64,000 nucleotides of DNA, from assembly GCA_913063225.1 (NCBI GenBank), contig CAJXYP010000004.1, forward strand, positions 1 through 64,000, written 5' to 3'. Shown piece by piece: positions 2,150 through 54,179 of the stretch (position 1 is the first letter of the stretch; each line of letters opens with the position of its first letter). Origin of the DNA: an uncultured Cellvibrionales bacterium. GTDB lineage: Bacteria > Pseudomonadota > Gammaproteobacteria > Pseudomonadales > GM7GCV1. The notes below the pieces were generated by a model. That model had not been told where the DNA came from and did no database searches. It was given only the letters and a program-made list of their open reading frames with translations. Position numbers and translations under genes: made by a program.

Positions 2150-2581
2150 ATGAAGCCTTTGAGGCATCTGCATCGACTTATACTGGCGATTTCCGTCAGC
2201 CTTTTGACCCTTCCTGCATTCGCGCATCACGGTGATGCAGGTCGTTATATCGAAGAGGTCATTGACCTCACCGGTACGGTCGTCACTTTGCTGTTTATCA
2301 ATCCACACTCGCAACTTATTCTGGACGTCACAAACGAGAGCGGAGAATCCGTGCGCTGGCACGCCGAGTTCAGTAATCCAAACCGGATGAATAGCGATTT
2401 TGGCTGGACCCGAGAAATATTGAAGCCTGGGGATCGTGTCACCTTAACGGGACGGCAACTCAAAAGCGGCGCACCCTTTATAAACCTTACGGAAAGAGCG
2501 CAGGTCGTCATGACCGATACCGGCGAGCAAATCTTCAAAACGAGAAACTTCGTTTCCAGTGAACCCGACCAGACTCCTTAA
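2150..2581 (+). CDS. DUF6152-like exported protein (short form)
   Basis: Signal peptide then HHGDAG..., INPH motif, EILKPGDRVTLTGRQL; in-frame ATG alternatives at 2114/2135. Confidence 0.75.
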   Translation: MKPLRHLHRLILAISVSLLTLPAFAHHGDAGRYIEEVIDLTGTVVTLLFINPHSQLILDVTNESGESVRWHAEFSNPNRMNSDFGWTREILKPGDRVTLTGRQLKSGAPFINLTERAQVVMTDTGEQIFKTRNFVSSEPDQTP

Positions 2582-2586
2582 TCGAA

Positions 2587-4143
2587 ATGAAAAGCTACTA
2601 TCGAATACTCCTACCACTGGTGGGATTAGTAATCGCGTCGCAGGTTGCTGCGGACGTTTCTCAGGTCGCGTATCTGAAAGCCTCAAACACGGGTCTGGCG
2701 GATAGTTTTGGCGCAGGCGGTTCAATTGCTGGCGATGCTGTCACCATAAGTGGAGATGGAAATACGCTTGTTGTCGGGGCGCCTAACGAAAGTAGTGGTG
2801 CGGTTGGCGTAAACGGTGATCAGAGCGATGATTCCATTTATGCCTCAGGAGCTGTCTACGTTTTCACCCGAAACGGAGAGAGCTGGGAGCAACAAGCCTA
2901 CATCAAGGCTTCCAACCCCGGGTTTGTCGATAATTTCGGTTTTATGACAGCCTTAAGTGGTAACGGCGACACTCTGGTGGTATCTGCTCACTTCGAGGCG
3001 GGTGGCGGAAAGGGAGTCGACGCTGATCAAGCTGATGATTCTATTCCCCAAGCTGGTGCCGTATACCTCTTTGAGAGAGATGGTGATAGTTGGGAACAAC
3101 AGGCATACATCAAAGCATCTAATACCGGTGAATTAGGAGCCGAAAACGAATACGTTGACGGTGACCAATTTGGGGCGTCAGTCGCGATCAGCGAAGATGG
3201 AAATACAGTCGCAGTTTCAGCGGTTGCCGAAGATGGCGGGCTGCCTGGCGTTAACTCCGATTCTTCCGATAATTCAGCACTAACGGCCGGTGCCGTTTAC
3301 CTGTTCAACCGCAGTGGTGAGAGCTGGGCAGAATCTGCATACATCAAACCGTCGAATCCCGATGGCCAAGATTACTTCGGCTATTCTGTTTCGTTGACTG
3401 GTAATGGCCGCAGGCTAGCGGTGGGTAGCTACGATGAGGACGGCTCTCTGGCCGGGACGAACACTGAACAAGACAATGAATCTCGGGGCAGTGGCGCCAT
3501 CTACATTTTCGATCTCGAAGATGCTAGCTGGATACAGACGGCCTACCTGAAGGCTTCAAACTCGGAGCGAGGCGATTCGCTGGGTGTATCCGTTGCAATC
3601 AGTAACGATGGCAGAACCGTCGTAGGCACTGCACTCGATGAAGATGGGACAACTACTGGCGTTAATAACTTTCCCGGACCTGATAGCGAGGTGAACCTAT
3701 CGACCGGAGCTGTATACGTCTGGGGGTACGACGAAATCTGGTCGCAACAGGCATATATCAAGGCATCGAACACCGACGCTGACGATGTATTTGGTGCCCG
3801 GTTGGCCCTCAGCGGCGACGGCGCGACTTTGGTCGTGGGCGCGCAATTCGAAGATGGAGCCACTCGAGGACCGAATGGTTCACAGGAGGATAATTCGGCA
3901 ATTGACGCCGGGGCGGTCTATATTTTCTCCAGAATCGGAGATGAGTGGCAACAACAAGACTATGTCAAAGCCTCAAATGCTGAGGCATTTGACGAGTTTG
4001 GAAGCTCTCTGAGTCTGAATAGCGATGGATCGGTGCTGGCAATTGGTGCCCGCTTTGAAGACAGTTCGGCCATCGGCAGCGGTGGTGAGCAAAGCGACAA
4101 TTCAGCCTACGATTCCGGTGCAGTCTACCTGTTCAGTCGCTGA
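2587..4143 (+). CDS. FG-GAP repeat (integrin-like beta-propeller) exported protein
   Basis: Repeated ~70-aa units: AYIKASN...D.FG..V.LSGDG.TLVVGA..E...G...DQ.DNS...SGAVY.F.R. Confidence 0.85.
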   Translation: MKSYYRILLPLVGLVIASQVAADVSQVAYLKASNTGLADSFGAGGSIAGDAVTISGDGNTLVVGAPNESSGAVGVNGDQSDDSIYASGAVYVFTRNGESWEQQAYIKASNPGFVDNFGFMTALSGNGDTLVVSAHFEAGGGKGVDADQADDSIPQAGAVYLFERDGDSWEQQAYIKASNTGELGAENEYVDGDQFGASVAISEDGNTVAVSAVAEDGGLPGVNSDSSDNSALTAGAVYLFNRSGESWAESAYIKPSNPDGQDYFGYSVSLTGNGRRLAVGSYDEDGSLAGTNTEQDNESRGSGAIYIFDLEDASWIQTAYLKASNSERGDSLGVSVAISNDGRTVVGTALDEDGTTTGVNNFPGPDSEVNLSTGAVYVWGYDEIWSQQAYIKASNTDADDVFGARLALSGDGATLVVGAQFEDGATRGPNGSQEDNSAIDAGAVYIFSRIGDEWQQQDYVKASNAEAFDEFGSSLSLNSDGSVLAIGARFEDSSAIGSGGEQSDNSAYDSGAVYLFSR

Positions 4144-4302
4144 TCAATTCAATCCGATGCAAGGTCAGTGCATCGATTCTAAATTGATGAAAATATGGGC
4201 TTATCATGCCATTAGTGACAAAGTTGGAAGTATGTCCCTTTTGTATGCTTAATGACATTGGCTCAGGGGTCTGTTTATAATGAAGATCAATTGGGGGAAA
4301 AT

Positions 4303-5004
4303 ATGTATCGATTACAATCAATAGCTGTAGTATTTCTTTTATCTGTTAGCACTAGCGCTATCCCGCAAACCGCCTGGGAAAATATAAATGAAATAGTCAC
4401 AGGTGAGGAATTATATGTCGCCTGTACATTCTGCCATGGTGCTGAGGCCCAAGGTAACGATAGACGTGATGGTCCTGCCTTGGCTGGTCTTGAAGCCTGG
4501 TATATAGAAAAGCAAATATACAACTTTAGGAATGGTCTTCGAGGCTATTCCGATGAGGATATACCCGGAAAGGTGATGCACGGCAGTACACCTATGATTA
4601 GAAATGATTTCACAGTTAATAGCATCTCTGAGTACATTGCAGGATTAGAGCCAGGATTACCAATGGCTAGAAACGCAATTGGCGATAGACCCTTTATCTG
4701 GGATTCACCCTATGCAGGCCTTGATCCATCTATAACGGGCGATGCCGAAGCTGGTGCAACGACTTACAATTCCGTCTGTGTCATATGTCACGGAACTGAA
4801 GGTGCCGGCAATGAGCTTTTGGGTGCGGGTAATCTCAGTTATCTGTCAGCAATCTATATGGAAAGGCAGCTGATGTACTTTAGGGATGGTATCCGGGGGG
4901 CTCACCCCGATGATGTGACTGGGCAGCAGATGGCGGCAATGGCCAAGATTTTGACAACGGATCAGGCCTTAGCCGATGTAGTCGCCTACATCATAGAGTT
5001 ATAG
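4303..5004 (+). CDS. diheme cytochrome c
   Basis: Two CxxCH motifs (CTFCHG, CVICHG); signal peptide from ATG 4303. Confidence 0.88.
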   Translation: MYRLQSIAVVFLLSVSTSAIPQTAWENINEIVTGEELYVACTFCHGAEAQGNDRRDGPALAGLEAWYIEKQIYNFRNGLRGYSDEDIPGKVMHGSTPMIRNDFTVNSISEYIAGLEPGLPMARNAIGDRPFIWDSPYAGLDPSITGDAEAGATTYNSVCVICHGTEGAGNELLGAGNLSYLSAIYMERQLMYFRDGIRGAHPDDVTGQQMAAMAKILTTDQALADVVAYIIEL

Positions 5005-5042
5005 AAACCTTATTTTACAATCAGTTACGGGGCTAAAAGAAC

Positions 5043-5660
5043 ATGAAACAATTACCAGTACTCGCAAGCATGTTATTTATATTTTTCGCCACCAGCCTGA
5101 CGGCTCAAACCTCAGCGGAGGTGAAATTGGTCGCTGCGCTTGAAGAAGACAGAGGCTGGTGCCTAGACCTTCGCGGTTCCCGAGCAAATGCGGAACCCGT
5201 AGGTGGCGTGCATGGGCACACTTGCTATACCTATGAGGGTGAAGGTGTAGCATTGGATCAGGGCTTTTTTGTGGAAAGCATCCACGACAACAATGAATTT
5301 AGAATGTCTGGTTTTCCTGATTTATGTATGACTATTTACGAGCCAAGACCGGGCTCGTTCGTTTCTGTTGAAACCTGCGATGATCGAGAAACTCAAGGAT
5401 TTACTCTAGGCGAAGCAGGAAAAATCACCTCTGATATGAGTCCGGAACTTTGCCTGACGGCTGGTTCTTTTGTTCTGCCCGGTGGTGGTGGTCGGCCTCT
5501 TCACATTATGCGGGACCTCAGCTTTGAGGAATGCGGTAGCGTAATTAGTGAGCTGCAAACCTGGGAATTGCGAACGGAATGGGCTGGGTTGGAGCAGACC
5601 ACTCTTCCAAGACCCTTTGCCGATGGTGCCCCTCCGGCACCTCGACCGCAGAATAACTAA
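5043..5660 (+). CDS. exported hypothetical protein, ricin-type beta-trefoil-like
   Basis: Signal peptide; RGWCLDL...CMTI...LCLTAGS pattern; paralogous to 23863..24441. Confidence 0.6.
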   Translation: MKQLPVLASMLFIFFATSLTAQTSAEVKLVAALEEDRGWCLDLRGSRANAEPVGGVHGHTCYTYEGEGVALDQGFFVESIHDNNEFRMSGFPDLCMTIYEPRPGSFVSVETCDDRETQGFTLGEAGKITSDMSPELCLTAGSFVLPGGGGRPLHIMRDLSFEECGSVISELQTWELRTEWAGLEQTTLPRPFADGAPPAPRPQNN

Positions 5661-5734
5661 CTATTCGAACGTTTTGGAAATCTAACTAAGCGACAGGGAG
5701 TTGCTTATGTCCATCCTCTTAATGGGATGGTAAA

Positions 5735-6481: not shown

Positions 6482-6494
6482 ATTTTTTAAGGGC

Positions 6495-7968: not shown

Positions 7969-9333
7969 ATGCTGATTGCTGTCGTTCTGGTTCTTCTAGT
8001 TGTCGGTTCGATTCTCTTTCACTTCTTAAGCCCTTGGTGGTTAACACCCATCGCTTCTAATTGGGTTGAAGTAGATAACACCATCACTATCACCTTTTGG
8101 GTTACCGGCTTTGTATTTGTCGCAGTAAATCTATTTCTCGCCTATGTATGTGTTCGTTACCGTTATCGGGCGGACCGCAAAGCCCACTACCAGCCAGAAA
8201 GTAAGCGCCTTGAGTGGGGATTAACTTGGCTTACTGCGATAGGCGTGTGTGCCATGCTAGCGCCCGGCCTTTTGGTGTGGGGGAATTTTGTAAACGTTCC
8301 CGACGAGGCACACGAAATCGAGGCAGTAGCTGAACAATTCCGTTGGTCGTTCCGCTTACCTGGAGAAGACGAAACATTCGGTAAAACAGATGTCAGCCAT
8401 ATGGGAGTCGAAAACCCATTTGGCATGGATCCCAGCGATCCTTATGGCGCAGACGACGTTCTTATCAACAATGGCGAATTACATTTGCCTTTGCACGAAC
8501 CGGTTAAAGTATTACTCCGATCCAAAGATGTTTTGCACAATTTCGCTGTGCCGCAAATGCGAGTGAAGATGGATATGGTGCCGGGCATGGTGACCTATCT
8601 CTGGTTTGAGCCAATTAGAATCGGGGAGTTTGAAATCTTATGTGAAGAGCTTTGCGGAATTGCGCATTACGCTATGCGTGGACGTGTTGTGGTGGATGAG
8701 GCCGAGGATTATCAAACTTGGGTCGACCAACAGGTTACTTACGAAGAAACTGCAAATTTACCAGCAGCCAACCCCATTGTTGGCCAAGCACTTTACGGTC
8801 TTTGCGCGGCCTGCCATGGCCCAGACGGGCAGGGCAATCAGCAGTTGGGCTCTCCAAAAATTTCCGGACAGTCTGCTTGGTATATGCAGCTGCAGATAAA
8901 TAACTTCAAGCAAGGTATTCGCGGAACCCAAGAGGGTGATGTATTTGGCCCACAAATGGCCGCAATGATGGCAACCCTAACGGACGACAATTCCGTAAGA
9001 AACGTAATTTCTCATGTGCAAGACCTGCCGGACCGCCCTGCACCTCAAACCGTTGAGGGCGATGCTGAGCGGGGAGGCTGGCTGTATACCACATGCGCGG
9101 CTTGTCATGGCCTGGATGCAATGGGGATTTGGCAGCAAAAAGGTCCTCGCCTAGCCGGGATGAGCGACTGGTACATGGTCAGTCAGCTACAGCACTTTAA
9201 AAATGGGTTGCGTGGCTACCATCCGCTCGATTTTGGCGGCGACCAGATGACGCAGCTGTCCATTATGCTCACCGACGATCGGGATATCCGAGATGTGGTG
9301 TCCTATATCAACACGTTGGCACCTTCCGAATAA
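7969..9333 (+). CDS. coxB: cytochrome c oxidase subunit II with two C-terminal cytochrome c domains
   Basis: CuA motif CEELCGIAHYAM; two CAACHG motifs; followed by subunit I. Confidence 0.93.
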   Translation: MLIAVVLVLLVVGSILFHFLSPWWLTPIASNWVEVDNTITITFWVTGFVFVAVNLFLAYVCVRYRYRADRKAHYQPESKRLEWGLTWLTAIGVCAMLAPGLLVWGNFVNVPDEAHEIEAVAEQFRWSFRLPGEDETFGKTDVSHMGVENPFGMDPSDPYGADDVLINNGELHLPLHEPVKVLLRSKDVLHNFAVPQMRVKMDMVPGMVTYLWFEPIRIGEFEILCEELCGIAHYAMRGRVVVDEAEDYQTWVDQQVTYEETANLPAANPIVGQALYGLCAACHGPDGQGNQQLGSPKISGQSAWYMQLQINNFKQGIRGTQEGDVFGPQMAAMMATLTDDNSVRNVISHVQDLPDRPAPQTVEGDAERGGWLYTTCAACHGLDAMGIWQQKGPRLAGMSDWYMVSQLQHFKNGLRGYHPLDFGGDQMTQLSIMLTDDRDIRDVVSYINTLAPSE

Positions 9334-9360
9334 GCCTGAATTGATAGGAGTATCTAACTG

Positions 9361-11136
9361 ATGGTCTACACACCAATTGCAGATTCTGACGACCCTCATG
9401 CTCTGCATGACCCTCAGAGTTTTATTAGCAAATATGTTTGGAGTCAGGATCACAAAGTAATTGCTATTCAGTATGCGTTGACGGCGCTTTCTGTTGGTCT
9501 CTTAGCTTTAGTTCTTTCCGGAATGATGCGGTTGCAGCTGGCTTTTCCTGAAAGCTTTACCTTTATCAATCCGAGTAACTATCTTCAGTTTGTCACCATG
9601 CACGGCATGATAATGGTGATTTATCTTTTAACCGCACTTTTTCTCGGCGGCTTTGGTAACTACCTAATTCCACTGATGTGTGGCACAAGGGATATGGTTT
9701 TCCCCTATCTAAATATGCTCAGTTATTGGGTGTATCTGCTGTCAGTTCTGATCTTACTCGCATCCTTTTTTGTTCCGGGAGGGGCCACAGGTGCTGGATG
9801 GACGCTCTATCCGCCGCAGGCGATTATGCCGGGTACACCCGGCGCAGATTACGGTATTCTCTTGATGCTGATATCCCTTGGCGTTTTTATTATTGCCTTT
9901 ACTATGGGGGGTCTGAACTACGTCACTACGGTATTACAGGCGCGTTGTAAGGGTATGTCCATGATGCGCATGCCGCTCACCGTGTGGGGAATATTTACCG
10001 CCACTATTCTCGGTTTGTTGGCTTTTCCGGCACTTTTAGTAAGCGCCATTATGATGACGCTGGATAAGACGCTGGGTACAAGCTTCTTTATGCCGGCGGT
10101 ACTTTCTATGGGGGCCGATGCTGGCTACACCGGCGGCAGCCCTATATTGTTCCAGCATCTGTTCTGGTTTTTCGGCCACCCAGAAGTTTATATCGTAGCG
10201 CTACCGGCCTTTGGCATGGTTTCTGATGTACTTAGTGTGCATGCGCGCAAAGCCATTTTTGGTTACCGCATGATGGTCTGGGCCATTGTCGCGATTGGCG
10301 CCCTTAGCTTCGTAGTATGGGCGCACCATATGTATGTGAGTGGCATGAACCCTTATTTCGGATTCTTTTTTGCTACCACCACCCTAATTATTGCGATCCC
10401 TACGGCCATTAAAGTTTACAACTGGGTGCTTACCCTCTGGCGCGGCAATATTCGCTTTACCGTGCCCATGCTTTTTGCCATTGGCTTTATATTTACCTTT
10501 ACGCACGGCGGTTTGACCGGCTTGTTCTTAGGTAATGTAACGGTAGATTTGCCGCTTTCAGATACCTATTTTGTGGTCGGGCATTTCCATATGGTTATGG
10601 GGGTATCTCCCGTTTTGGTGCTATTTGCTGCTATCTATCATTGGTTTCCTAAAGTTACCGGACGCTTGCTGAATACGACCATGGGGAAATGGCATTTCTG
10701 GCTAACCTTTCTCGGTACTTACTCCATATACCTGCCGATGCACTATCTGGGCTTTCTGGGAGTTCCCCGGCGCTATTTTGCAAATGGTACATCTGATTTT
10801 ATGCCGGATTCGGTTCAGACCATAAATATTAGTATTACGGTCGCGGCGCTTATTGTGGCGGTTGTGCAGTTGTTGTTTCTCTTCAATCTTTTCTGGAGTT
10901 TGAAGCACGGCGAGAAAGCCGGTTCGAACCCTTGGGAGGCTGCCAGTTTAGAGTGGCAAACGCCAGACACTCCGCCTAAGCACGGCAACTGGGGAGCGGA
11001 ACTACCGGTGTGCCATCGCTGGGCCTATGACTACAGCGTTCCCGGTCACGCGACCGACTTTATCCCTCAGAACGAACCTCATAATGGAGAAGACTCTCTC
11101 GAAGAGATGTCAGCTCATCCAGAGGAAGATCATTGA
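9361..11136 (+). CDS. ctaD: cytochrome c oxidase subunit I
   Basis: FFGHPEVYIVALPAFG, WAHHMYVSGMNP, GHFHMVMG motifs; 591 aa. Confidence 0.96.
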   Translation: MVYTPIADSDDPHALHDPQSFISKYVWSQDHKVIAIQYALTALSVGLLALVLSGMMRLQLAFPESFTFINPSNYLQFVTMHGMIMVIYLLTALFLGGFGNYLIPLMCGTRDMVFPYLNMLSYWVYLLSVLILLASFFVPGGATGAGWTLYPPQAIMPGTPGADYGILLMLISLGVFIIAFTMGGLNYVTTVLQARCKGMSMMRMPLTVWGIFTATILGLLAFPALLVSAIMMTLDKTLGTSFFMPAVLSMGADAGYTGGSPILFQHLFWFFGHPEVYIVALPAFGMVSDVLSVHARKAIFGYRMMVWAIVAIGALSFVVWAHHMYVSGMNPYFGFFFATTTLIIAIPTAIKVYNWVLTLWRGNIRFTVPMLFAIGFIFTFTHGGLTGLFLGNVTVDLPLSDTYFVVGHFHMVMGVSPVLVLFAAIYHWFPKVTGRLLNTTMGKWHFWLTFLGTYSIYLPMHYLGFLGVPRRYFANGTSDFMPDSVQTINISITVAALIVAVVQLLFLFNLFWSLKHGEKAGSNPWEAASLEWQTPDTPPKHGNWGAELPVCHRWAYDYSVPGHATDFIPQNEPHNGEDSLEEMSAHPEEDH

Positions 11137-11807
11137 ATCCGATTACCCTAGCCATAGCGTTACTCTGCTCTGTTGTGGTGTGGGGTCTAATTGTTCGCCA
11201 CTTAACCGCAATGCCCTGGGAGGAAGCTGGCGGTGGTTCGCATCTACGCGATATCCAGACTGTTGACCTTCCAGCTGCCAAGGTGGCCTTCTATGCTCTG
11301 CTGGGAGTTATCACCAGTCTGTTCCTGCTGTTTTTTACTGCCTACAACATGCGTATGAATCCCAGCCATGGCGGTGACTGGCATTCGGTAGCTGAACCAG
11401 GCTTGCTGTGGCTGAACACAGGCCTTTTGATATTAAGTAGCGTTGCCATGCAGTGGGCGAGAGCCTTGGCTAAACGAGACAATCAACAGAAACTCTTATT
11501 AGCTTTGATCTTCGGCGGGCTGCTGACGTTAGCATTTCTAACGGGGCAAATGGTGGCTTGGGGGCAAATGCAGGCGTCCGGGCAATACTCGTTAAGCAAT
11601 CCCGCAAGCGCTTTTTTCTATCTGCTGACCGCCGTTCATGGATTTCATTTGATAGGTGGTTTGGTAGTTTGGGGGCTAACCCTGAAAAAAATCAAAGGGG
11701 GAGCATCGGCGCAGTCTTTACAGCTTACGGTTGAGCTCTGTTCAGTTTATTGGCATTACCTCTTAGTAGTCTGGCTAATGCTATTTGCTATCTTGGTGTC
11801 CACCTGA
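11133..11807 (+). CDS. heme-copper oxidase subunit III-family protein
   Basis: TTG start overlapping the ctaD stop; multi-TM; AVHGFHLIGGLVVWGL and VYWHYLLVVWL motifs. Confidence 0.8.
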   Translation: MNPITLAIALLCSVVVWGLIVRHLTAMPWEEAGGGSHLRDIQTVDLPAAKVAFYALLGVITSLFLLFFTAYNMRMNPSHGGDWHSVAEPGLLWLNTGLLILSSVAMQWARALAKRDNQQKLLLALIFGGLLTLAFLTGQMVAWGQMQASGQYSLSNPASAFFYLLTAVHGFHLIGGLVVWGLTLKKIKGGASAQSLQLTVELCSVYWHYLLVVWLMLFAILVST

Positions 11808-12499
11808 TGGAGACGTCAATGAGTATGCCGACGCCGGAACAGGCGATACTTAAAAGCGGATCAGAAGGTGCTGTTGCTGATTGGGCATCTGATCGAGAAA
11901 CCTTTCATGTGCCTTGGGGTAAGGCCATGATGTGGATATTCCTGCTCAGCGATACTTTTATATTCAGCTGCTTCCTTATTGGTTATATGACGGTACGAAT
12001 ATCTACTCCGGTGCCTTGGCCTATACCCAGTGAAGTATTTGCACTGACTATTGCCGGCAACTCTATACCCTTGGTATTGATTGCCATCATGACCTTCATT
12101 TTAATCACCAGTAGCGGCACCATGGCTATGGCGGTTAACTTTGCCTATCGTGGCGATCGCAAAAAGGTAGTGTGGCTGATGGCGGCTACTGCACTTCTTG
12201 GCGCTTCTTTTGTTGGTATGCAAGCCTTTGAGTGGACCAAACTTATTGTTGAAGAGGGTGTTCGGCCATGGAGCAACCCTATGGGTGCCGCTCAGTTTGG
12301 TGCTGCGTTCTTTATGATTACCGGGTTTCACGGACTACACGTGACAGCAGGCGTGATTTATTTGTCAATTGTGGCCCGCAAAGTTCATCGCGGCGATTAT
12401 GAAAAGAAAGGATATGCAATTGTTGAGATTGCTGGCCTCTATTGGCATTTTGTCGATTTGGTCTGGGTATTTATCTTTGCATTCTTCTACCTTTGGTAA
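11807..12499 (+). CDS. ctaE: heme-copper oxidase subunit III
   Basis: TGATG overlap with previous gene; ITGFHGLHVTAGVIYL and GLYWHFVDLVWVFIFAFFYL. Confidence 0.9.
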   Translation: METSMSMPTPEQAILKSGSEGAVADWASDRETFHVPWGKAMMWIFLLSDTFIFSCFLIGYMTVRISTPVPWPIPSEVFALTIAGNSIPLVLIAIMTFILITSSGTMAMAVNFAYRGDRKKVVWLMAATALLGASFVGMQAFEWTKLIVEEGVRPWSNPMGAAQFGAAFFMITGFHGLHVTAGVIYLSIVARKVHRGDYEKKGYAIVEIAGLYWHFVDLVWVFIFAFFYLW

Positions 12500-12508
12500 G
12501 GGGGAAAT

Positions 12509-12853
12509 ATGTCGGACTCTGCTACTGATCAACACCCGATCGCACTTTACCTGTGGATTTGGTTATTGCTCTTTGTTCTCAGTACATTTTCTTATTTAGT
12601 AGATTATTTTAATTTTCAGGGATATTTGCGTTGGTCATTAATCCTTCTCTTTATGTTTCTTAAAGCAGGGTTGATCATCTCAATTTTTATGCATATGGCC
12701 TGGGAGCGCATGGCGCTGATCACAGCGATTTTGGTGCCGCCACTCTGCCTTCTGGTATTTCTTGCTTTGATGGCTATTGAAGGTGATTACACCGAGTCGT
12801 CTCGACTACTCTTTTTTACTGCTCCGGAAATCCCGGCTCCAATGCATCACTAG
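12509..12853 (+). CDS. cytochrome c oxidase subunit IV family protein
   Basis: Small three-TM protein ending the cox cluster; LKAGLIISIFMHM motif. Confidence 0.8.
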   Translation: MSDSATDQHPIALYLWIWLLLFVLSTFSYLVDYFNFQGYLRWSLILLFMFLKAGLIISIFMHMAWERMALITAILVPPLCLLVFLALMAIEGDYTESSRLLFFTAPEIPAPMHH

Positions 12854-15069: not shown

Positions 15070-16122
15070 ATGAAAAACACTATATTTAGGGCCGTAATGG
15101 CTAAAGCGCTAATTGTTGTAGTTTTAGGTTCTCCAATTGCCGCTTATTCGCATCACGGTGCGAACAATAATCCAGATCTTTATTTGGCCGAAAATCTTCT
15201 TCGTCTTGAAGGAGAGGTTACTACCGTCTTTTGGCGCAATCCTCATCCACGATTGATACTGTCCGTTATAGATCAACAGGGCGAAGAGCAGGAGTGGGAG
15301 CTTGAGATGGGTGGAAGTATAAACAGCTATCAGCAGGCGGGAATTGGTGAAGACCTTGTCGCAGTCGGCGATAGGGTGAAAGCAGCAGGTGTAGTGTCGC
15401 GACGTGACCCAAGGACTATCGGGTTACAAAACATGCTACTACCCAATGGCGAAGAGCTGGTTAGGAGCGGCGATGCACTTTGGTCTGAAGAGTTAGTAGA
15501 TACCGCGAGACGAGGTCCGACTGCTGCTCAAATTCGCACTGCTGAAGCCTCTGCTGAGGGCTTATTTCGAGTTTGGGGTCGTCGCACAAGCGGTCGTCCC
15601 AGCGCATCCGAGTACGCTGGATTGTTGACTAATCAAGGCAGAGAGTTGGCGGCACAATATAATTTTGCGACGGACAATCCAGAGCTAGAATGTCGTTCTG
15701 GCATACCTACCAATATGTTCGACCCAACACCCATGCAGTTAATTGATAACGGCGATCATATTGTGATTTATACCGAGGAGCATGACCTGCGTCGTATGGT
15801 TTATATGACTGATGACCGACCTGAAGCTATTTCTTCGAATCTAGGATTTTCCATCGGTCACTGGCAAGGCGATTCATTGATTGTCGAGACCAGTCATATT
15901 GAGTGGCCCTATTTCGACCCTTACGGCACGCCTCAGTCGGATCAAATGACTTATCAAGAAACTTTCTGGGTGGCTGCTGATGATAGTAGGCTCAACTACA
16001 AGATAGTGGCGACGGATCCCGTATATTTGACTGGGTCAATCGAGCTTGAACGAGCCTGGCTCTGGCAGCCTGGTACCGCAATGGTGCCATTTAACTGTGC
16101 GGCAGAGGTGGCCTCTAACTAG
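15070..16122 (+). CDS. DUF6152-like exported protein (long form)
   Basis: AAYS|HHGANNN, WRNPHPRLIL, SIGHWQGDSLIVETSHIEWP. Confidence 0.75.
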   Translation: MKNTIFRAVMAKALIVVVLGSPIAAYSHHGANNNPDLYLAENLLRLEGEVTTVFWRNPHPRLILSVIDQQGEEQEWELEMGGSINSYQQAGIGEDLVAVGDRVKAAGVVSRRDPRTIGLQNMLLPNGEELVRSGDALWSEELVDTARRGPTAAQIRTAEASAEGLFRVWGRRTSGRPSASEYAGLLTNQGRELAAQYNFATDNPELECRSGIPTNMFDPTPMQLIDNGDHIVIYTEEHDLRRMVYMTDDRPEAISSNLGFSIGHWQGDSLIVETSHIEWPYFDPYGTPQSDQMTYQETFWVAADDSRLNYKIVATDPVYLTGSIELERAWLWQPGTAMVPFNCAAEVASN

Positions 16123-18430: not shown

Positions 18431-19474
18431 ATGAGCATTAGAATAATTTTACTGGTCGTTATTTTTGCTGCATTCGGCAGCCTGCCGGCCCATGCGCATC
18501 ACGCAGCTACAGCTACCTTTGATACTAGCCAGACTATGGAAATTGAGGGCTACGTCAAAGAGTTCAGCTTTAACAATCCTCATGTGACCATTACGCTGGG
18601 CATTCCCGATGAAAGCGGTATGCAGGAAGAGTGGGTTGCAAGCGCGCCAGCCGTAGCGGGATTTAGACGTTGGGGTTGGACTGGCGATATGATCGAAGAG
18701 GGCCAATATGTTCGCCTTGTCGGCAGAACAGCCCGACACGGTGGCCCCATGATATTAATTGAACGCGGCGATATTGAAGGCGGTAAGTTACTTGAGCTGA
18801 ATCCGGATGACGGATCTCTGGTTCGTATTCTTGAAGGCCCAAAGCCAGATCAGACCCCCGAGCTAGGCATTCCCGCTTTATGGCTCGAAAACGGAAAACC
18901 AAATCTTACTGGCACTTTTTTAGCATTGGATCCAGCTGCGGGACAAAATATTCGCACTAGAGCGGAATTCACCGCCGCTGGACAAACGCTTCAAGACGTC
19001 TGGGACCCAACCAAAGATCCCGCTTACACAGAATGCGCTCCTCAGGGGCTTATTCGGGTAGTTACGGCTATTCAGTCTGTGCGGATAACTCAGCGCGACG
19101 ACTATGTAATTGTTGCCCAAGAGGGTAATAACTCTCAGCGGCTAATCTATCTGGACGGCAGAGGTCCTGCCACCGAAGAACACTCTATACAGGGACATTC
19201 AACAGCTCATTATGAAGGCGACACGCTAGTAGTCGAGACTAGTCAGCTGTTAGGTGGTCCCACCGGCGGTGGCGGCAATATTCTCAGCGATCAGGCGACT
19301 TTAGTTGAGCGCTATAGTCGGTCGGACGATGCTGAGCATGCGTCGCTTGCAGCCGATATCACCTTTACCGATCCGGTAAACCTTGCGACTCCTTGGAAAG
19401 CCGGTTGGAGCAAGTATATGACTACCGACTATGGGTTTGCCGATACAGAGTGTCATTTACCTAGTCTGAACTAG
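18431..19474 (+). CDS. DUF6152-like exported protein (long form)
   Basis: PAHA|HHAATATF, FNNPHVTITL, STAHYEGDTLVVETSQLL. Confidence 0.78.
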   Translation: MSIRIILLVVIFAAFGSLPAHAHHAATATFDTSQTMEIEGYVKEFSFNNPHVTITLGIPDESGMQEEWVASAPAVAGFRRWGWTGDMIEEGQYVRLVGRTARHGGPMILIERGDIEGGKLLELNPDDGSLVRILEGPKPDQTPELGIPALWLENGKPNLTGTFLALDPAAGQNIRTRAEFTAAGQTLQDVWDPTKDPAYTECAPQGLIRVVTAIQSVRITQRDDYVIVAQEGNNSQRLIYLDGRGPATEEHSIQGHSTAHYEGDTLVVETSQLLGGPTGGGGNILSDQATLVERYSRSDDAEHASLAADITFTDPVNLATPWKAGWSKYMTTDYGFADTECHLPSLN

Positions 19475-22966: not shown

Positions 22967-23084
22967 TGCCCGTAAAAAGGCCTATTAAAAACCGTAAAGA
23001 CAGAGGATTTTTCTGGTTTCGGACTTTCAGCCCTCCGACCCTGTGTTAGCCTCTAAGTATTTGAAAATACTCTTGGGGAAAACA

Positions 23085-23837
23085 ATGGGCGGAATTTCTT
23101 TCCAAAAATTCAAATATTTGCTGTTTATCGGCTTTGCACTGACCACTTTCGGTGCTGCCTCGAGTGCATCAGCACAAATGTATAAAGCCGGAACCGACGA
23201 TGGCGTGCCCGGCGAAGAAATGTTTCAAGCCTGTGGATTTTGCCATGGTAATCAGGGGCAGGGTCGGCAGCGTCTGGACGCACCGCCTATTGCTGGGTTG
23301 CAGGCCTGGTATGTTGAGCGCCAGCTGAATAACTTTGATAACGAAATCCGTGGCATGCACGCTGAGGACTTGCCCGGTGCTCAAATGATTGTGATCAACG
23401 GCATTCTGCGCAACGAGGCGACCATTAAAAATGTAGCAGCCTATATTGAAACACTTGAACCCGGTGGCCCTCCTATGATGCGTGGTCGTGGTGAAAATGC
23501 CGTTCCTGAACCCCTAGAGCGGCCCTTTAATTGGGAATCTGAATACGCCTTTTTGAACCCGCCGGCTCCAGGTGATCCAGATGATGGGGCAAAGATATAC
23601 AACAGTATGTGTACGATTTGCCATGCCGCCAATGGTATAGGTAATCAAACTCTAGGCGCTCCAAACCTAACCGTATTGGCGCCCTGGTATATGGAGCGCC
23701 AGCTCGAATACTTTCAGGACGGAATTCGCGGCTCAGATCCGCAGGACGTATTTGGTGCACAGATGCTTACCTTTGCAAAACTCTTGGCTGACGATCAGGC
23801 TATCGCCGATGTCGTTGCCTATATCGACACCCTTTAA
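23085..23837 (+). CDS. diheme cytochrome c
   Basis: CGFCHG and CTICHA motifs; paralogue of 4303..5004. Confidence 0.9.
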   Translation: MGGISFQKFKYLLFIGFALTTFGAASSASAQMYKAGTDDGVPGEEMFQACGFCHGNQGQGRQRLDAPPIAGLQAWYVERQLNNFDNEIRGMHAEDLPGAQMIVINGILRNEATIKNVAAYIETLEPGGPPMMRGRGENAVPEPLERPFNWESEYAFLNPPAPGDPDDGAKIYNSMCTICHAANGIGNQTLGAPNLTVLAPWYMERQLEYFQDGIRGSDPQDVFGAQMLTFAKLLADDQAIADVVAYIDTL

Positions 23838-23862
23838 TTCACCACTCGGAGAGGTAATTAGC

Positions 23863-24441
23863 ATGAAATTAAGACTTACTGCAGCCATCTGCCTTACGGT
23901 GGCACTATTTGCACAAACTGTTTCAGCAGCGACTCTGGCTGAGCTCAAACTTATAAATCCGCTGGAGGAATCTCGCGGTTGGTGTGTAGATCTATTTGCG
24001 CATCTCACTGGCGGCTTGCCAATTGGTGGCTTTCAGGGCCACAACTGCTTCTCCTATATGGACGGTGGTCCGACCGAAGATCAAGGTTTTGACGCTGAAA
24101 TGTACGCGGACCAAGGCGTTATTCGGCTCGACTACTTTGATATATGTATGACCGTGCATGAACCCAGAGCGGGTTCATTTGTAGCCTCCGAGCCTTGCAC
24201 TGGCGAAGATGTTCAGAAATTCGATATTCAGGATTCAGGTGAAATTGTTTCTCGCTCGTCGCCCAATCTTTGCCTGACGATGGGCACTAGATTGGTTACC
24301 GGCGGAGGTGGCGAGCCTATTCATCTTATTCGCAAGCTTTCTTTTGAAGACTGCGACTCTGCCATTGCCGAGCGACAGCAATGGGAACTACGCACGACCT
24401 GGCAAGAATCAACGCCTACTAGAGAGCGACCTTATAATTAG
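23863..24441 (+). CDS. exported hypothetical protein, ricin-type beta-trefoil-like
   Basis: Paralogue of 5043..5660 (RGWC.DL, CMT..EPR.GSF, LCLT, GGGG.P.H..R.LSFE.C); ATG 23863. Confidence 0.62.
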   Translation: MKLRLTAAICLTVALFAQTVSAATLAELKLINPLEESRGWCVDLFAHLTGGLPIGGFQGHNCFSYMDGGPTEDQGFDAEMYADQGVIRLDYFDICMTVHEPRAGSFVASEPCTGEDVQKFDIQDSGEIVSRSSPNLCLTMGTRLVTGGGGEPIHLIRKLSFEDCDSAIAERQQWELRTTWQESTPTRERPYN

Positions 24442-28674: not shown

Positions 28675-29868
28675 ATGGGTAAAGAGAAGTTTGAACGTAC
28701 TAAGCCCCACGTAAATGTGGGCACGATTGGTCACGTGGATCATGGTAAAACCACACTGACGGCGGCATTGACGCGCGTATGTGCGGAAGTATGGGGCGGA
28801 GATGCGGTTGCTTTTGACGGTATCGATAACGCACCGGAAGAGCGCGAGCGCGGTATTACTATTGCGACGTCTCACGTTGAATATGAATCACCGAATCGTC
28901 ACTACGCACACGTTGATTGCCCAGGACACGCGGATTATGTGAAAAACATGATTACCGGTGCTGCTCAAATGGACGGCGCTATATTGGTTTGTTCAGCGGC
29001 TGACGGCCCCATGCCTCAGACGCGTGAGCACATCCTTCTATCTCGTCAGGTTGGTGTTCCGTACATCGTAGTATTTTTGAACAAAGCCGACATGGTTGAC
29101 GACGAAGAACTTTTGGAATTGGTTGAAATGGAAGTTCGTGAACTTCTTGATCAATACGAATTCCCTGGCGACGATACGCCAATCATCATCGGTTCTGCGC
29201 TTATGGCGTTGAACGGTGAAGATGACAACGAAATGGGTACTACGGCAGTTAAGAAGCTTGTTGAAGTTCTGGATTCATATATTCCAGAGCCAGAGCGTGC
29301 GGTAGATCTTCCATTTTTGATGCCAATTGAAGACGTTTTCTCTATCTCAGGTCGCGGTACGGTTGTTACCGGTCGAATTGAGCGCGGAATCGTAAACGTT
29401 GGTGACGAGATTGAAATCGTTGGTATCCACGACACGACTAAAACCACCTGTACCGGTGTTGAGATGTTCCGCAAGTTGCTTGACGAAGGTCGCGCTGGTG
29501 AGAACGTTGGTGTACTTCTGCGCGGAACTAAGCGTGAAGAAGTTGAACGTGGACAGGTTCTTTGTAAGCCTGGCGCGATCAAGCCACACACTAAGTTTGA
29601 AGCGGAAGTATATGTTCTGTCTAAAGACGAAGGTGGCCGTCATACACCATTCTTTAAAGGTTACCGTCCTCAGTTTTACTTCCGTACAACGGATGTGACT
29701 GGTGCCTGTGAGCTTCCAGAAGGCGTTGAAATGGTAATGCCTGGTGACAATATACAGATGGTAGTAGAGCTGCACGCTCCGATTGCGATGGAAGAAGGTC
29801 TTCGGTTTGCGATTCGTGAAGGTGGCCGAACTGTTGGTGCTGGTGTTGTAGCCAAGATTATCGAGTAA
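28675..29868 (+). CDS. tufB: elongation factor Tu (copy 1)
   Basis: 397 aa EF-Tu; identical to 45552..46745. Confidence 0.98.
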
Positions 29869-43428: not shown

Positions 43429-45519
43429 GTGGCGCGTAAAACTCCTATAGATCGTTACCGCAATATTGGTATTGCTGCGCATGTTGATGCCGGTAAAACC
43501 ACGACGACTGAGCGCGTGCTTTTCTATACCGGTCTATCCCACAAAATTGGTGAAGTGCACGACGGCGCTGCAACCATGGATTGGATGGAGCAAGAGCAAG
43601 AACGCGGTATTACCATTACCTCGGCTGCGACCACCTGTTTCTGGCAGGGCATGGAAAAGCAGTTCGATGAGCATCGCATCAACATTATCGATACCCCAGG
43701 GCACGTTGACTTCACGATTGAAGTAGAGCGCTCTCTGCGCGTCCTAGATGGCGCTGTAGTGGTACTTTGCGGTTCTTCTGGCGTACAGCCACAAACTGAG
43801 ACCGTTTGGCGACAAGCGAACAAATACGAAGTGCCACGCCTAGTCTTTGTAAACAAGATGGATCGCGCCGGTGCCGACTTTATGATGGTGGTAGACCAGC
43901 TTAAAGATCGTTTGGGTGCTAACCCGGTTCCGCTTCAGTTAACTATTGGTTCTGAAGATGGGTTCAGAGGCGTTGTCGACCTTATTAAGATGAAAGCCAT
44001 TATCTGGAACGAAGACGATCAGGGCATGACCTTCGTCTACGAAGATATTCCAGCGGATATGCAGGACCAGTGTGAGGAGATGCGCGAGCAGCTAATAGAA
44101 GCTGCAGCAGAAGCCACTGATGACTTCATGGAAAAGTATCTTGAAGGTACCGAACTCACCGAAGAAGAAATTAAAGCCGGCATTCGTTCTCGCACACTGG
44201 CCAACGAAATTATTCCCGTTATTGGTGGATCTGCCTTTAAGAATAAAGGGGTTCAAGCCATGTTGGATGCCGTCATTGAATTTCTGCCAGCGCCAACCGA
44301 AGTTAAGGCTATTCAAGGCATTCTCGATAAAGGTGAGCCCGGTACTCGCACAGCGGACGATGAAGCACCTTTTTCGGCTCTTGCTTTCAAAATTGCTACG
44401 GATCCCTTCGTAGGTACTCTGACCTTCTTTCGCGTTTATTCAGGCACGCTGACGAGCGGCACTGCGGTATACAACTCGGTTAAGGATAAAAAGGAGCGCG
44501 TTGGTCGCATGGTGCAAATGCACGCCAACAGTCGTGAAGAAATTAAGGAAGTTCGAGCGGGAGATATCGCCGCTGCGGTAGGCCTTAAAGACGTAACTAC
44601 CGGCGATACCCTCTGCGATATCAGCCAGCTTATTGTTCTTGAGCGTATGGAATTCCCGGAACCGGTTATTTCGGTTGCGGTAGAGCCCCGATCAAAGCCT
44701 GATCAAGAAAAAATGGGCGTTGCTCTGAGCAAGTTGGCTCAAGAAGATCCGTCTTTTCGTGTGAAGACCGATGAAGAGACCGGCCAAACTATTATTTCTG
44801 GTATGGGCGAGCTACACCTGGATATTCTTGTCGACCGTATGCGCCGAGAGTTCAGTGTCGAAGCTAATATTGGTAAGCCTCAGGTGGCTTATCGTGAGGC
44901 CATCAAAAATACTTGCGAGATTGAAGGCAAATTTGTGCGTCAATCTGGTGGCCGCGGTCAGTACGGGCACGTTTGGATTAAGTTTGAGCCGAGCGACGAA
45001 GATGGTCTTGAATTTGTAAATGAAATTGTTGGCGGTTCGGTTCCTAAGGAATATATCCCGGCGGTTTCTAAAGGTATTGAAGAGCAGATGAAAAACGGTG
45101 TTATCGCCGGATATCCTCTGCTAGGTCTTAAAGCGACCCTTTATGACGGTTCTTTCCACGATGTGGATTCCAACGAAATGGCCTTTAAGGTTGCCGGTTC
45201 ATTGGCGACCAGGGAGCTAGCGGATGTTGGCGGCGCGGTATTACTCGAGCCGATGATGAAAGTTGAAGTAGTCACTCCTGAGGTCAATATGGGCGATGTA
45301 GTTGGCGATATTAACCGCCGACGTGGCTTGATATTGGGCATGAGTGACAGCCCAATGGGTAAGGTAATTGATGCCGAAGTGCCCTTGGCAGAAATGTTTG
45401 GTTACGCAACAGACCTGCGCTCTGCAAGCCAGGGCCGTGCAACCTACACTATGGAATTCCTTAAGTACGCTGAAGCAACAAACAACGTTGCTCAGGCAAT
45501 TATTGAACGCAACAGCTAG
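43429..45519 (+). CDS. fusA: elongation factor G (primary)
   Basis: GTG start; [19 protein letters not shown]; located in the str operon. Confidence 0.98.
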
Positions 45520-45551: not shown

Positions 45552-46745
45552 ATGGGTAAAGAGAAGTTTGAACGTACTAAGCCCCACGTAAATGTGGGCA
45601 CGATTGGTCACGTGGATCATGGTAAAACCACACTGACGGCGGCATTGACGCGCGTATGTGCGGAAGTATGGGGCGGAGATGCGGTTGCTTTTGACGGTAT
45701 CGATAACGCACCGGAAGAGCGCGAGCGCGGTATTACTATTGCGACGTCTCACGTTGAATATGAATCACCGAATCGTCACTACGCACACGTTGATTGCCCA
45801 GGACACGCGGATTATGTGAAAAACATGATTACCGGTGCTGCTCAAATGGACGGCGCTATATTGGTTTGTTCAGCGGCTGACGGCCCCATGCCTCAGACGC
45901 GTGAGCACATCCTTCTATCTCGTCAGGTTGGTGTTCCGTACATCGTAGTATTTTTGAACAAAGCCGACATGGTTGACGACGAAGAACTTTTGGAATTGGT
46001 TGAAATGGAAGTTCGTGAACTTCTTGATCAATACGAATTCCCTGGCGACGATACGCCAATCATCATCGGTTCTGCGCTTATGGCGTTGAACGGTGAAGAT
46101 GACAACGAAATGGGTACTACGGCAGTTAAGAAGCTTGTTGAAGTTCTGGATTCATATATTCCAGAGCCAGAGCGTGCGGTAGATCTTCCATTTTTGATGC
46201 CAATTGAAGACGTTTTCTCTATCTCAGGTCGCGGTACGGTTGTTACCGGTCGAATTGAGCGCGGAATCGTAAACGTTGGTGACGAGATTGAAATCGTTGG
46301 TATCCACGACACGACTAAAACCACCTGTACCGGTGTTGAGATGTTCCGCAAGTTGCTTGACGAAGGTCGCGCTGGTGAGAACGTTGGTGTACTTCTGCGC
46401 GGAACTAAGCGTGAAGAAGTTGAACGTGGACAGGTTCTTTGTAAGCCTGGCGCGATCAAGCCACACACTAAGTTTGAAGCGGAAGTATATGTTCTGTCTA
46501 AAGACGAAGGTGGCCGTCATACACCATTCTTTAAAGGTTACCGTCCTCAGTTTTACTTCCGTACAACGGATGTGACTGGTGCCTGTGAGCTTCCAGAAGG
46601 CGTTGAAATGGTAATGCCTGGTGACAATATACAGATGGTAGTAGAGCTGCACGCTCCGATTGCGATGGAAGAAGGTCTTCGGTTTGCGATTCGTGAAGGT
46701 GGCCGAACTGTTGGTGCTGGTGTTGTAGCCAAGATTATCGAGTAA
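45552..46745 (+). CDS. tufA: elongation factor Tu (copy 2)
   Basis: Same 397-aa product as 28675..29868. Confidence 0.98.
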
Positions 46746-47834: not shown

Positions 47835-47850
47835 TTCAAGGCATTTATCT

Positions 47851-48408: not shown

Positions 48409-48825
48409 CTATTCCCGAACGCCGTCCAGTATCACCGCTTCTTCTACTGCTGATCTTTGGCGTATATTGGCTACTACTTCGTAATAGGCTCCATCTAATC
48501 CAAAACCGCTAATTACCATTTCCGGGTCACCATTCCGTGCGGGCCATCCACGAACAGTTATTGCATCACCGGGTTTAATTACATCACTACTTGCGGGTAG
48601 CCCTGTGTTGTCCCAGTTCCTTGGGGTGATTTCTATGGTCCACTGGCGTCCATCAGTTTCGTTGACCACAAGAATGGGATGAGGGCGCACATATTCAAAG
48701 CTTTCGGCTATACCGCTAATCTCCATAATGTCGTTTATCGCGTAAGGCGAGAAAGAATGATGAGCGTAGGCATAGGTAGAAAACAGCGCTATGGCTGATG
48801 CGGCTATCCTAAGTATCTGTTTCAT
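48409..48825 (-). CDS. DUF6152-like exported protein (short form)
   Basis: TYAYA|HHSFSPY, VRPHPILVV, VIKPGDAITVRGWPARNG; start at MKQILRI. Confidence 0.78.
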   Translation of the reverse strand: MKQILRIAASAIALFSTYAYAHHSFSPYAINDIMEISGIAESFEYVRPHPILVVNETDGRQWTIEITPRNWDNTGLPASSDVIKPGDAITVRGWPARNGDPEMVISGFGLDGAYYEVVANIRQRSAVEEAVILDGVRE

Positions 48826-48992
48826 CGGGTGCCCTCTGGGAATAGTTTTCAGTATAGCTGCAATTTGCCAATAACGGGATTCAGATTGGGAATTAGAGTT
48901 AGTAATAAATACTTTTGTTCTCGCAGTCAAGCCTAGTGATAAACTCGCGCCTAGATCCTTGCCAGCCAGAAAGTTCTTGGAGATTTTTTTAG

Positions 48993-49934: not shown

Positions 49935-49946
49935 CTGGAAATATTT

Positions 49947-51373: not shown

Positions 51374-52408
51374 CTAAGCTCCTGACCTAATATTATTGGC
51401 CCCGGAAAGTTCTTCGCATTCGTACGGAACATAGGGAATCGCCGATATATCCGAAATGTCTCTGCCGTTGTAAGGCTGTTCAAAATAGAGTGAATCCGTG
51501 GCTGTGTGCTCGTGCACCAGCGTTTGGGTTTCTTGTTCGTACCAGAATCTTTCAGTCACTTCGTATTGGTTGCTATGCATAATCCCGTTGATGGGGCTCA
51601 GCGAACCTGGTGCTATTGCCGAGGTGTGCGTCACTAGTACATTGCCTTGCCAGTGACCGATAGAGTGCCCAGCGCGCGTATTAGCAATGTCGGTTGGGTG
51701 GCTATCAATATTTAGGTATATGGTGCGCTCTAGGTCCATATAGCCATAGATTATCCGAACAGTATCCGCAGTTTGAACAATGCGATTTGGGAATCGTCCA
51801 AAAGGGTAGCCGTGAATAATTCCCACACTTTCGCATTGAAGGCCAGGGTGGTCGTATACAAAATCAAAAGCCTCTTTTGCAGTGTTTGCCGCAGCGGTTT
51901 GCGTATAAGAATCTCTAGGGCCTGATCTAGGTTGTGCAACCCAATCGCCACTTATATTTGGTTGACCATTCTCAAGCAAAAGAGGTTTTGTCTCGGCCTG
52001 TCTTATGGCTACCTGCACCGGACCAGCATCTTCGCGGGGCACTATCGTTCCGTCTGCCAATACCAATTCGTTTAGGTAGCAATGATTATTTTCACGGCGG
52101 GCAGGTGACGCGTTTAATCGCACGTATTCGCCTGCTACAAAGGTTTGCTGGGTCCATCCCAAGCGACGCAAGGTAATTGCTGCAGGAAGTTCACAGCGCG
52201 TAGACAGGGCACTGCCGTTTTCCTGAGCAATATCAAAATATAGGTAAGCGTGCGGATTCACGAATTTGAATTCGGTAATCACGCCTTCGTATAGAATATT
52301 CTGATCCATAAAGAAATGCGGAGTATCCGAGTGATGTGCTTTTGCTATCGGCGTGAACGTCATAATTGCCACGCCAAGCGATATGGCAATGTATCTGCTG
52401 AAAGTCAT
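51374..52408 (-). CDS. DUF6152-like exported protein (long form)
   Basis: IAKA|HHSDTPHF, FVNPHAYLYF, SIGHWQGNVLVTHTS. Confidence 0.78.
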   Translation of the reverse strand: MTFSRYIAISLGVAIMTFTPIAKAHHSDTPHFFMDQNILYEGVITEFKFVNPHAYLYFDIAQENGSALSTRCELPAAITLRRLGWTQQTFVAGEYVRLNASPARRENNHCYLNELVLADGTIVPREDAGPVQVAIRQAETKPLLLENGQPNISGDWVAQPRSGPRDSYTQTAAANTAKEAFDFVYDHPGLQCESVGIIHGYPFGRFPNRIVQTADTVRIIYGYMDLERTIYLNIDSHPTDIANTRAGHSIGHWQGNVLVTHTSAIAPGSLSPINGIMHSNQYEVTERFWYEQETQTLVHEHTATDSLYFEQPYNGRDISDISAIPYVPYECEELSGANNIRSGA

Positions 52409-52503
52409 CTATCCCCCTATAGATATTCCACCCTAGTGCCTCAAGTATAGAGCGAATGCAGAAGAGGCATAATTAATAGCCTGTGAAACCTTTGCTCTGG
52501 ACA

Positions 52504-52540
52504 TAAAAAAGCCCGGCTTAAAGAGCCGGGCTTTTGTTTT
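52504..52540 (-). terminator. terminator downstream of 52563..54179
   Basis: AAAAAAGCCCGGCTtaaAGAGCCGGGCTTTTGTTTT; T-run on the minus strand. Confidence 0.8.
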
Positions 52541-52562
52541 CAGTTGTTTTGTTACTTTTTAC

Positions 52563-54179
52563 TTAGGGCGTAGCAACACAATAGAAGAGGCCATCACCGC
52601 CTGTGCCTTGTAAATCAGCTTGGCCGCAGCCACGTGACGCATGTGCGCTATTCCAAGAGGTGGGATTATCGCCACCGCCTTCACGATCGAAGTGACCTAC
52701 TAGTGCAGAACCCTCGCCATTGCTGGTCCAGTTGCTGCACGTGGTGTCTGTATCAGAGTTCATGGCCATGCCATTCATATCGGAACCCGTCAGAATGTCG
52801 TGGCGATTAGGGGTATCACCTCGGCCATTCACTAGCTGCCCGCGCTCTGTTACTACATTCGGCTTAGTGACCATGTTGGCGTCACTGTGCAAATTAGCTA
52901 CATCAAGCGCAACCGGCACGCCTCTAGCGTTGTATAAAGGTGCGGCACCAGCAATACGGTCGCTGGCATTTACGCCATTAGCGCCCGTAGTGCTCAGATA
53001 TGCAGTCCAGTTCTTATCGCCGTGACCTACCGTTCCTGCCAGAGCGGCACAATGAGCATCTGCTCCTTCAAGGCCGCCTAGATTGGCGCCATCACCCGAG
53101 CCATTGCTGGTTAGGAAGAAGTTCATGGAAGGATGTACATCTACTCGCTCTCTTAGCGGCTGCTGGCAATCGTTCTCGATGAACTCATAAGCACCCTGAT
53201 CGCGATAGAGCATGTTATGCACTATGTCTTTTGAAAGGTGTGCCGGGTCAGAAATGACCATATTTAACATTAGGATAGTGCCTTCGTCCGTATCAGAACG
53301 GCTATAGGTTTCTACCACTGTGGTTTGATCCGTTAGACGGTAACCCTGGTTAGTAGCTTGATTGGCAAGCAGGTTAGTCGTCTCAATGATTAGGGTGTCG
53401 CCTTCATAGCGTGCCATCGAGTCACCCAGGTGAGTATTGATACTCTTAGCGCCTCGATCATCGAAGTATATTTTGCGATTACCGGCAAACTCTTCATAAG
53501 TGAGCAATACATGATCGTCGAATTGTTCAATTTTTGCAGGGTGTGGAGTAATCACCTGGCGAATCAATCCAACAGGGTCACAAAAGACCTGTGGGTCTGT
53601 AGATATATCAAAGGTTGCCTGCAGTGCTAGACCAGTCTCATTCAGAGGGGCTACTTCTGAAAATTGCCCCGGGCGAGTTGTCCGAATTCCCTGATTCGAC
53701 CAGACGCTGCTTAGGTTAGGTTTTCCATCAGCCAGTGTGAGAGCAAAGTTATCATCTATTTCAGGCTGATAGGCATTGCCGACTTGACCGTCCTCACCAA
53801 GAGTTGAAATAACCACTCGGGTATCGGGATCGAGAAACTCTAGGGTTCCAAATGAAGTCATTGGTGAACCATCGTGTGTTGCATCGCCTGTGATGCGCAC
53901 CATTTGGCCCGGCTGAATGGTATCTGTTGACCAGCCTTGTCGACGAAATCCCGTCGCGGAACCACCCTCTGTAACCCAGCCCGTTACGGAGCCATCTTCA
54001 TTGGTTACATCTACATAAACTAGGATATGTGGATTGCGAAAACTAAAGCGCGTTACTACTCCTTCAATGGTGGTGTCGTATTCATCAGTGAAAGTGGCAG
54101 AAAAAGAGTGGTGCGCCTGAGCCGTCACGCAGCTAAAGGTCAAGCTAATAAATAGTAAGCCGGATATAAGGTTTTTCAT
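52563..54179 (-). CDS. DUF6152-like protein fused to endostatin/C-type-lectin-like C-terminal domain
   Basis: TAQA|HHSFSATF, FRNPHILVYV, SMARYEGDTLIIETTNLL, then FFLTSNGSGDGANLGGLEGADAHCAALA...TTCSNWTSNGEG...LFYCVATP. Confidence 0.75.
   Translation of the reverse strand: MKNLISGLLFISLTFSCVTAQAHHSFSATFTDEYDTTIEGVVTRFSFRNPHILVYVDVTNEDGSVTGWVTEGGSATGFRRQGWSTDTIQPGQMVRITGDATHDGSPMTSFGTLEFLDPDTRVVISTLGEDGQVGNAYQPEIDDNFALTLADGKPNLSSVWSNQGIRTTRPGQFSEVAPLNETGLALQATFDISTDPQVFCDPVGLIRQVITPHPAKIEQFDDHVLLTYEEFAGNRKIYFDDRGAKSINTHLGDSMARYEGDTLIIETTNLLANQATNQGYRLTDQTTVVETYSRSDTDEGTILMLNMVISDPAHLSKDIVHNMLYRDQGAYEFIENDCQQPLRERVDVHPSMNFFLTSNGSGDGANLGGLEGADAHCAALAGTVGHGDKNWTAYLSTTGANGVNASDRIAGAAPLYNARGVPVALDVANLHSDANMVTKPNVVTERGQLVNGRGDTPNRHDILTGSDMNGMAMNSDTDTTCSNWTSNGEGSALVGHFDREGGGDNPTSWNSAHASRGCGQADLQGTGGDGLFYCVATP

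Follow-up and report, generated by a model that had tools for sequence, protein, structure and literature searches.

Extracytoplasmic proteins with a histidine at the mature N-terminus are a known kind of metalloprotein, exemplified by the histidine-brace proteins LPMO (lytic polysaccharide monooxygenase), CopC and PmoB. According to PMC12537917, N-terminal-His families also include DUF4198, a nickel binder, as well as DUF6702, Ang-1 and Ang-2, and the metals involved range from nickel to copper. Here we compare with these systems six paralogous genes of the Pfam family DUF6152 (PF19649) from an uncultured Cellvibrionales bacterium (assembly GCA_913063225.1), which lie in positions 1 to 64,000 of contig CAJXYP010000004.1; this entire stretch of 64,000 nucleotides is referred to below as the window. 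DUF6152 is an established Pfam name, and the accessible part of PMC12537917 does not mention it; our literature searches for DUF6152, and for the membrane protein family DUF6644 discussed below, found no paper naming either family. A version of such proteins built, as the models suggest, on an oligonucleotide/oligosaccharide-binding (OB) fold, and having a pair of exposed histidines as well as a barrel partner, would be new.

All six window proteins match DUF6152 above the Pfam cut-off of 27 bits, with scores of 44.6-69.8 bits and matches that span the whole domain. The initial annotation, which described them as DUF6152-like paralogues, had their positions and strands right, along with the His-His (HH) and Pro-His (PH) motifs quoted for each; in the predicted mature chains, the PH histidine falls at position 28-32. 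Across the source genome, residue 1 of the mature protein is His in 53 of 54 readable N-termini (Arg in the remaining one), residue 2 is His in all 54, and the PH histidine is present in 51/51 members of a set not selected for the motif. Among the frames outside this count, C20:6102 reads THHS and the others, except C6:35616, are truncated or split. C6:35616, the only intact paralogue without HH (residues QSNQSP), also lacks PH (NSPA), a joint loss that, as one case, points to a joint function of the two motifs. Elsewhere, the conserved post-cleavage N-terminal His characteristic of signal-strapping N-terminal-His metalloproteins is found in 180/180 DUF6152 sequences: HH is present in 92/92 distant loci (found via the NPH pattern), in 20/20 divergent single-copy relatives and in 68/68 profile-found copies from three expanded genomes. 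PH is retained in 20/20 of the divergent relatives and in 67 of the 68 profile-found copies, and the exception keeps the His as NAAH (His in 68/68). In an alignment of 138 domains, H2 and H29 are present in all 138 and H1 in 137, followed closely by P28, G69 and G60, while most other columns vary widely. The contig scan relied on a subset profile containing the NPH motif, which biases the PH counts, not those of HH, in L042-L121, and with them 87 members of this alignment; the unbiased PH sets are those of 51, 20 and 68 copies.

The claim that the signal peptide ends directly before HH is likewise supported, by a rule-based prediction: of 147 sequences, 142 have HH at a position that satisfies the (-3,-1) rule for signal peptidase, 146 have a charged n-region, and no lipoprotein-type Cys is nearby. 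Among 49 other predicted secreted open reading frames (ORFs) of the source genome, read from the stretches around the DUF6152 copies, one starts with H and none with HH. At the sequence level, then, the conservation of HH and PH throughout the family is confirmed to be beyond chance.

The DUF6152 domain models as an OB-fold, an assignment that holds at the level of fold only. The AlphaFold2 model of the mature gene-1 protein, built from an alignment with 93 relatives, has a mean predicted local distance difference test score (pLDDT) of 82, a predicted template modelling score of 0.77 and the strand-helix order of an OB-fold. Among the 50 Foldseek matches listed for this model are SSB, TiaS, LysRS and PriB, all OB-folds, and neither an LPMO or CopC beta-sandwich nor CusF; a sequence search of the PDB yielded no match below E 0.5. 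In a covariation analysis of 225 sequences, 15 of the 30 top pairs fall on OB ladders, compared with 6% of all pairs; signals linking one invariant column to another were regarded as artefacts and left out. In the model, the PH His starts strand 2 and the conserved Glu E49 ends strand 3, so that the two would be neighbours in the OB-fold.

The likeness to LPMO, CopC and PmoB drawn in the initial annotation accordingly survives in part: a predicted mature His1 and an internal His are both conserved, but the fold appears to be an OB-barrel rather than the immunoglobulin-like beta-sandwich of LPMO and CopC. Neither the modelled fold nor the PDB sequence search supports membership in the LPMO or CopC families by homology. 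CusF is a periplasmic OB-fold copper chaperone whose ligands are internal Met, His and Trp residues, not the N-terminus; DUF6152 resembles it as a small periplasmic OB-barrel for which metal binding is proposed, and differs in the proposed N-terminal site. The examples of exposed-N-terminus metal sites known to us are beta-sandwiches; if His-His is a metal site, DUF6152 would place such a site on an OB-fold. With DUF4198, DUF6702, Ang-1 and Ang-2 (PMC12537917), DUF6152 shares a signal cleavage that exposes a conserved N-terminal His, along with further possible internal ligands; it differs in having two exposed histidines, conserved at ~100%, and in its OB-fold model, the solved members of those families being beta-sandwiches.

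Beyond the initial annotation, a second conserved region of ~200 residues, here called the C-domain, follows DUF6152 in four of the six window genes (genes 2, 3, 5 and 6 along the window, starting at 15070, 18431, 52408(-) and 54179(-), respectively). The Pfam entry leaves this region uncovered, the stand-alone C-domain protein has no Pfam or NCBIfam match, and a sequence search of the PDB with the C-domain found none. In the source genome, 39 fetched frames hold DUF6152 together with the C-domain. In other bacteria, the C-domain is a separate secreted protein, encoded within 700 bp of 80 of 92 DUF6152 genes and on the same strand in 76 cases. These counts come from six-frame profile searches, which replaced an earlier neighbour clustering because, in high-GC loci, shadow ORFs left only 47 of the 92 DUF6152 genes called. 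In the three further expanded genomes, the C-domain is fused or adjacent in 34/39, 11/15 and 11/14 copies; it was not found in the divergent single-copy loci. The source genome also has one separate layout, at C11, where a tandem double C-domain precedes a single-domain DUF6152; the gene order is the same in L042, and the tandem-domain protein there is 89% identical. Modelled separately from the DUF6152 domain, the C-domain reaches a pLDDT of 93, and its best Foldseek matches are the FABP, CRABP and CRBP barrels. Its conserved residues are Cys, Arg, Glu and Asp, with no conserved His or Met. From the predicted barrel fold we infer that the C-domain is a calycin-like barrel that would bind a small ligand.

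The six window genes are about a tenth of the DUF6152 set of the source genome, where 59 matches in 2.26 Mb correspond to ~55 genes, some matches being two pieces of one broken gene. Copies interrupted by stops or frame changes (C20:6102, C8:80509-80788, C23:29925-30187 and C17:50718) are evidence pointing to gene turnover. Within the genus, two further genomes carry 58 and 21 matches; outside it, a second genus of the family shows one or two, and the rest of the order almost none. Most Pseudomonadota that have DUF6152 carry one copy. Large sets recur in unrelated genomes, with 100 (G434), 98 (G433), 98 (G439), 73 (G437), 71 (G438) and 47 (G432) matches, among Arenicellaceae, Acidobacteriota, and gamma- and alphaproteobacterial metagenome-assembled genomes; a relative with a genome of 2.6 Mb has ~100 matches. 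The expansion is patchy, given that only 3 of 60 sampled Acidobacteriota genomes, the centre genome itself included, have the family.

These observations are best accommodated, we think with slightly better than even chances, by N-terminal metal binding by DUF6152 that is coupled to the barrel. Under this scenario, DUF6152 would be a Sec-exported periplasmic OB-fold protein in which the signal peptidase cut exposes a free N-terminal His-His, a step for which the sequence-level case is strong. Together with the invariant histidine in the NPH loop that connects strands 1 and 2, H1 and H2 would then form a transition-metal site, most likely for copper, the choice of metal being one that sequence alone cannot make. 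A metal site appears the likeliest reading because the exposed His-His and the internal His are near-perfectly conserved and were jointly lost once; for other families, this line of reasoning has been validated (PMC12537917). This site would work together with a calycin-like barrel holding a small organic ligand, usually fused behind the OB domain in this lineage and encoded elsewhere as the next gene; in the divergent single-copy relatives, the OB protein would be paired with DUF6644 instead. The occurrence of 47-100 copies in several unrelated genomes, together with the fused or adjacent barrel, suggests that the variable part is the ligand, and the expansion to 50-100 diverged OB-plus-barrel copies might accordingly represent ligand diversification around a constant metal site. 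The metal (copper) binding or redox role proposed in the initial annotation is thereby partly supported, by the predicted cleavage before HH and the conservation of HH and PH, but not by the modelled fold, which is unlike that of LPMO, CopC and PmoB. If the scenario is correct, the number of paralogous metalloproteins would be unusually high for so small a genome, and the barrel partner, which has no Pfam or NCBIfam name, would lead directly to the natural ligand; proteins of 110 to 320 residues suffice to test the metal-site and ligand claims.

Several observations weigh against this scenario. The N-terminal residues 1-10 are placed in the model with a mean pLDDT of only ~69, and the covariation of the N-terminal segment is weak, may reflect descent, and does not suffice to place H1 and H2. 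In a crude barrel model, the start of strand 1 lies 21-29 Å from the PH His, which is borderline for a maximum reach of ~24 Å. The conserved E49 is lost in divergent members. For the barrel, Foldseek gives weak E-values, the best being 1.5e-3, and this assignment, too, is made at the level of fold only. Finally, the 25 most frequent families listed for 147 paralogue neighbours include no copper family.

The closest described gene pairs are CopC-CopD and YcnI-YcnJ, in which the gene for an extracytoplasmic N-terminal-His protein adjoins that for a CopD/HemJ-superfamily membrane protein (e.g., PMC8424229). A similar pairing is seen in the divergent single-copy form of DUF6152, which is followed by a DUF6644 membrane gene in 18/18 loci, on the same strand and with a gap of 20-188 bp. 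Some single-copy loci also encode a cytochrome c-prime-like protein and TonB receptors. DUF6644 proteins carry an invariant His and an invariant Lys, both inside the stretch aligned to the HemJ-like profile (hhalign probability 93, E 2.5e-7); one DUF6644 protein exceeds the CopD cut-off (36.1 versus 32.1 bits), whereas full-length CopD compares poorly at the profile level (probability 1.4). This favours placing DUF6644 in the HemJ/CopD superfamily of membrane proteins. Within it, HemJ-like proteins are nearer than full-length CopD, which is one difference from the described pairs. The other is linkage: DUF6644 is absent beside the window copies and, with two weak, unlinked matches in the source genome, is not linked to the expanded copies. 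A literature search for the haem ligands of HemJ found nothing. A neighbour of this superfamily fits copper or haem equally.

Haem or porphyrin handling is unlikely, in our estimate, but deserves the first place among the alternatives. Here the histidines would ligate haem, and the calycin barrel, the HemJ-like DUF6644 and cytochrome c-prime would make up a haem-linked periplasmic system. In its favour, hydrophobic cofactors can be accommodated by calycin barrels, and the best alignment of DUF6644 is to HemJ-like proteins. In addition, 14 loci contain a gene resembling cytochrome c-prime, with a weak Pfam match (E 0.002), next to which a cytochrome b561 gene is found in one case. Set against this are the lack of a conserved His or Met in the calycin domain and of any link between DUF6644 and the expanded copies of the source genome, and HH at the extreme N-terminus is typical of chelating sites, not of haem sites.

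A copper-dependent secreted oxidase or oxygenase with LPMO-like chemistry, in which oxygen or peroxide would be activated at the His-His site and the choice of substrate would fall to the barrel, seems to us improbable. The invariance of H1 and the internal His would suit such an enzyme, as would substrate diversification over 50-100 diverged copies per genome, the cytochromes c near the single-copy operons and the catabolic, varied neighbours in the source genome (sulfatases, aldo-keto reductases, amidohydrolases and FAD monooxygenase-type proteins). Yet no neighbour family is found more than a few times, the modelled fold differs from that of LPMOs, and DUF4198, Ang-1 and Ang-2 gave at most weak oxidase or peroxidase activity, as reported in PMC12537917. 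In the most far-reaching form of this idea, DUF6152 would be a secreted metal (copper) oxidase of a new class, joining a brace-like site on an OB-fold, made up of the cleaved N-terminal His-His and the loop His, to ligand-specific calycin barrels, and amplified in unrelated bacteria to 50-100 copies directed at many small organic compounds; this we likewise rate as improbable.

Simple metal chaperoning or sequestration, as in CopC/CopD-like copper or nickel homeostasis, is no better a prospect. It would account for the DUF6644 gene after the divergent single-copy form in 18/18 loci and for the DUF6644 protein that passes the CopD cut-off, but the resemblance to full-length CopD is slight, metal-homeostasis families are not frequent beside the expanded copies, and neither a barrel partner nor 59 to 100 copies per genome would be expected of such a system; 50-100 copies per genome argue against a simple copper chaperone in particular. 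Copper-gene proximity as general support for metal binding was rejected, no copper family being among the most frequent ones listed for the paralogue neighbours; the copper oxidase and c-type cytochromes pointed out in the initial annotation are present locally (a caa3-type oxidase at 7969-12853 and cytochromes c at 4252 and 23043) but are a local feature.

That HH and PH serve a structural or protein-docking function and bind no metal is the least probable alternative, and a very unlikely one. P28, G69 and G60 come close to the histidines in invariance, but a structural role hardly explains why essentially all members keep two adjacent histidines at a freshly cleaved, exposed N-terminus, or why HH was lost together with the third His in the sole exception.

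Within the window, genes 1-3 are on the forward strand and genes 4-6 on the reverse strand. Gene 1 (2150..2581) is a single-domain gene with a predicted signal peptide at 2150-2224, the mature HH at 2225-2230 and the PH His codon at 2306-2308. Gene 2 (15070..16122; HH 15151-15156, PH His codon 15244-15246) and gene 3 (18431..19474; HH 18497-18502, PH His codon 18581-18583) encode fused C-domains at ~15520-16119 and ~18869-19471, respectively. Gene 4 (48409..48825; HH 48762-48757, PH His codon 48681-48679) again has a single domain. Gene 5 (51374..52408; HH 52336-52331, PH His codon 52252-52250) and gene 6 (52563..54179; HH 54113-54108, PH His codon 54029-54027) carry fused C-domains at ~51997-51377 and ~53750-53127, respectively, followed in gene 6 by a C-terminal tail of ~185 residues. 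This tail (52563-53130) resembles the start of a separate secreted protein encoded elsewhere in the genome, at L013:7519-8223, with which it shares the motif FFxTSxGxGxGADLGGLxGADAHC, and represents a further fusion.

Elsewhere in the window, a two-gene unit, in which a ricin-B-lectin-like gene comes after one encoding two cytochrome c domains, is present twice, at 4252-5660 and 23043-24441, like a duplicated module. Two EF-Tu genes with the same protein sequence lie at 28675-29868 and 45552-46745, and there are two fusA-type genes, at 43429 and 54377.

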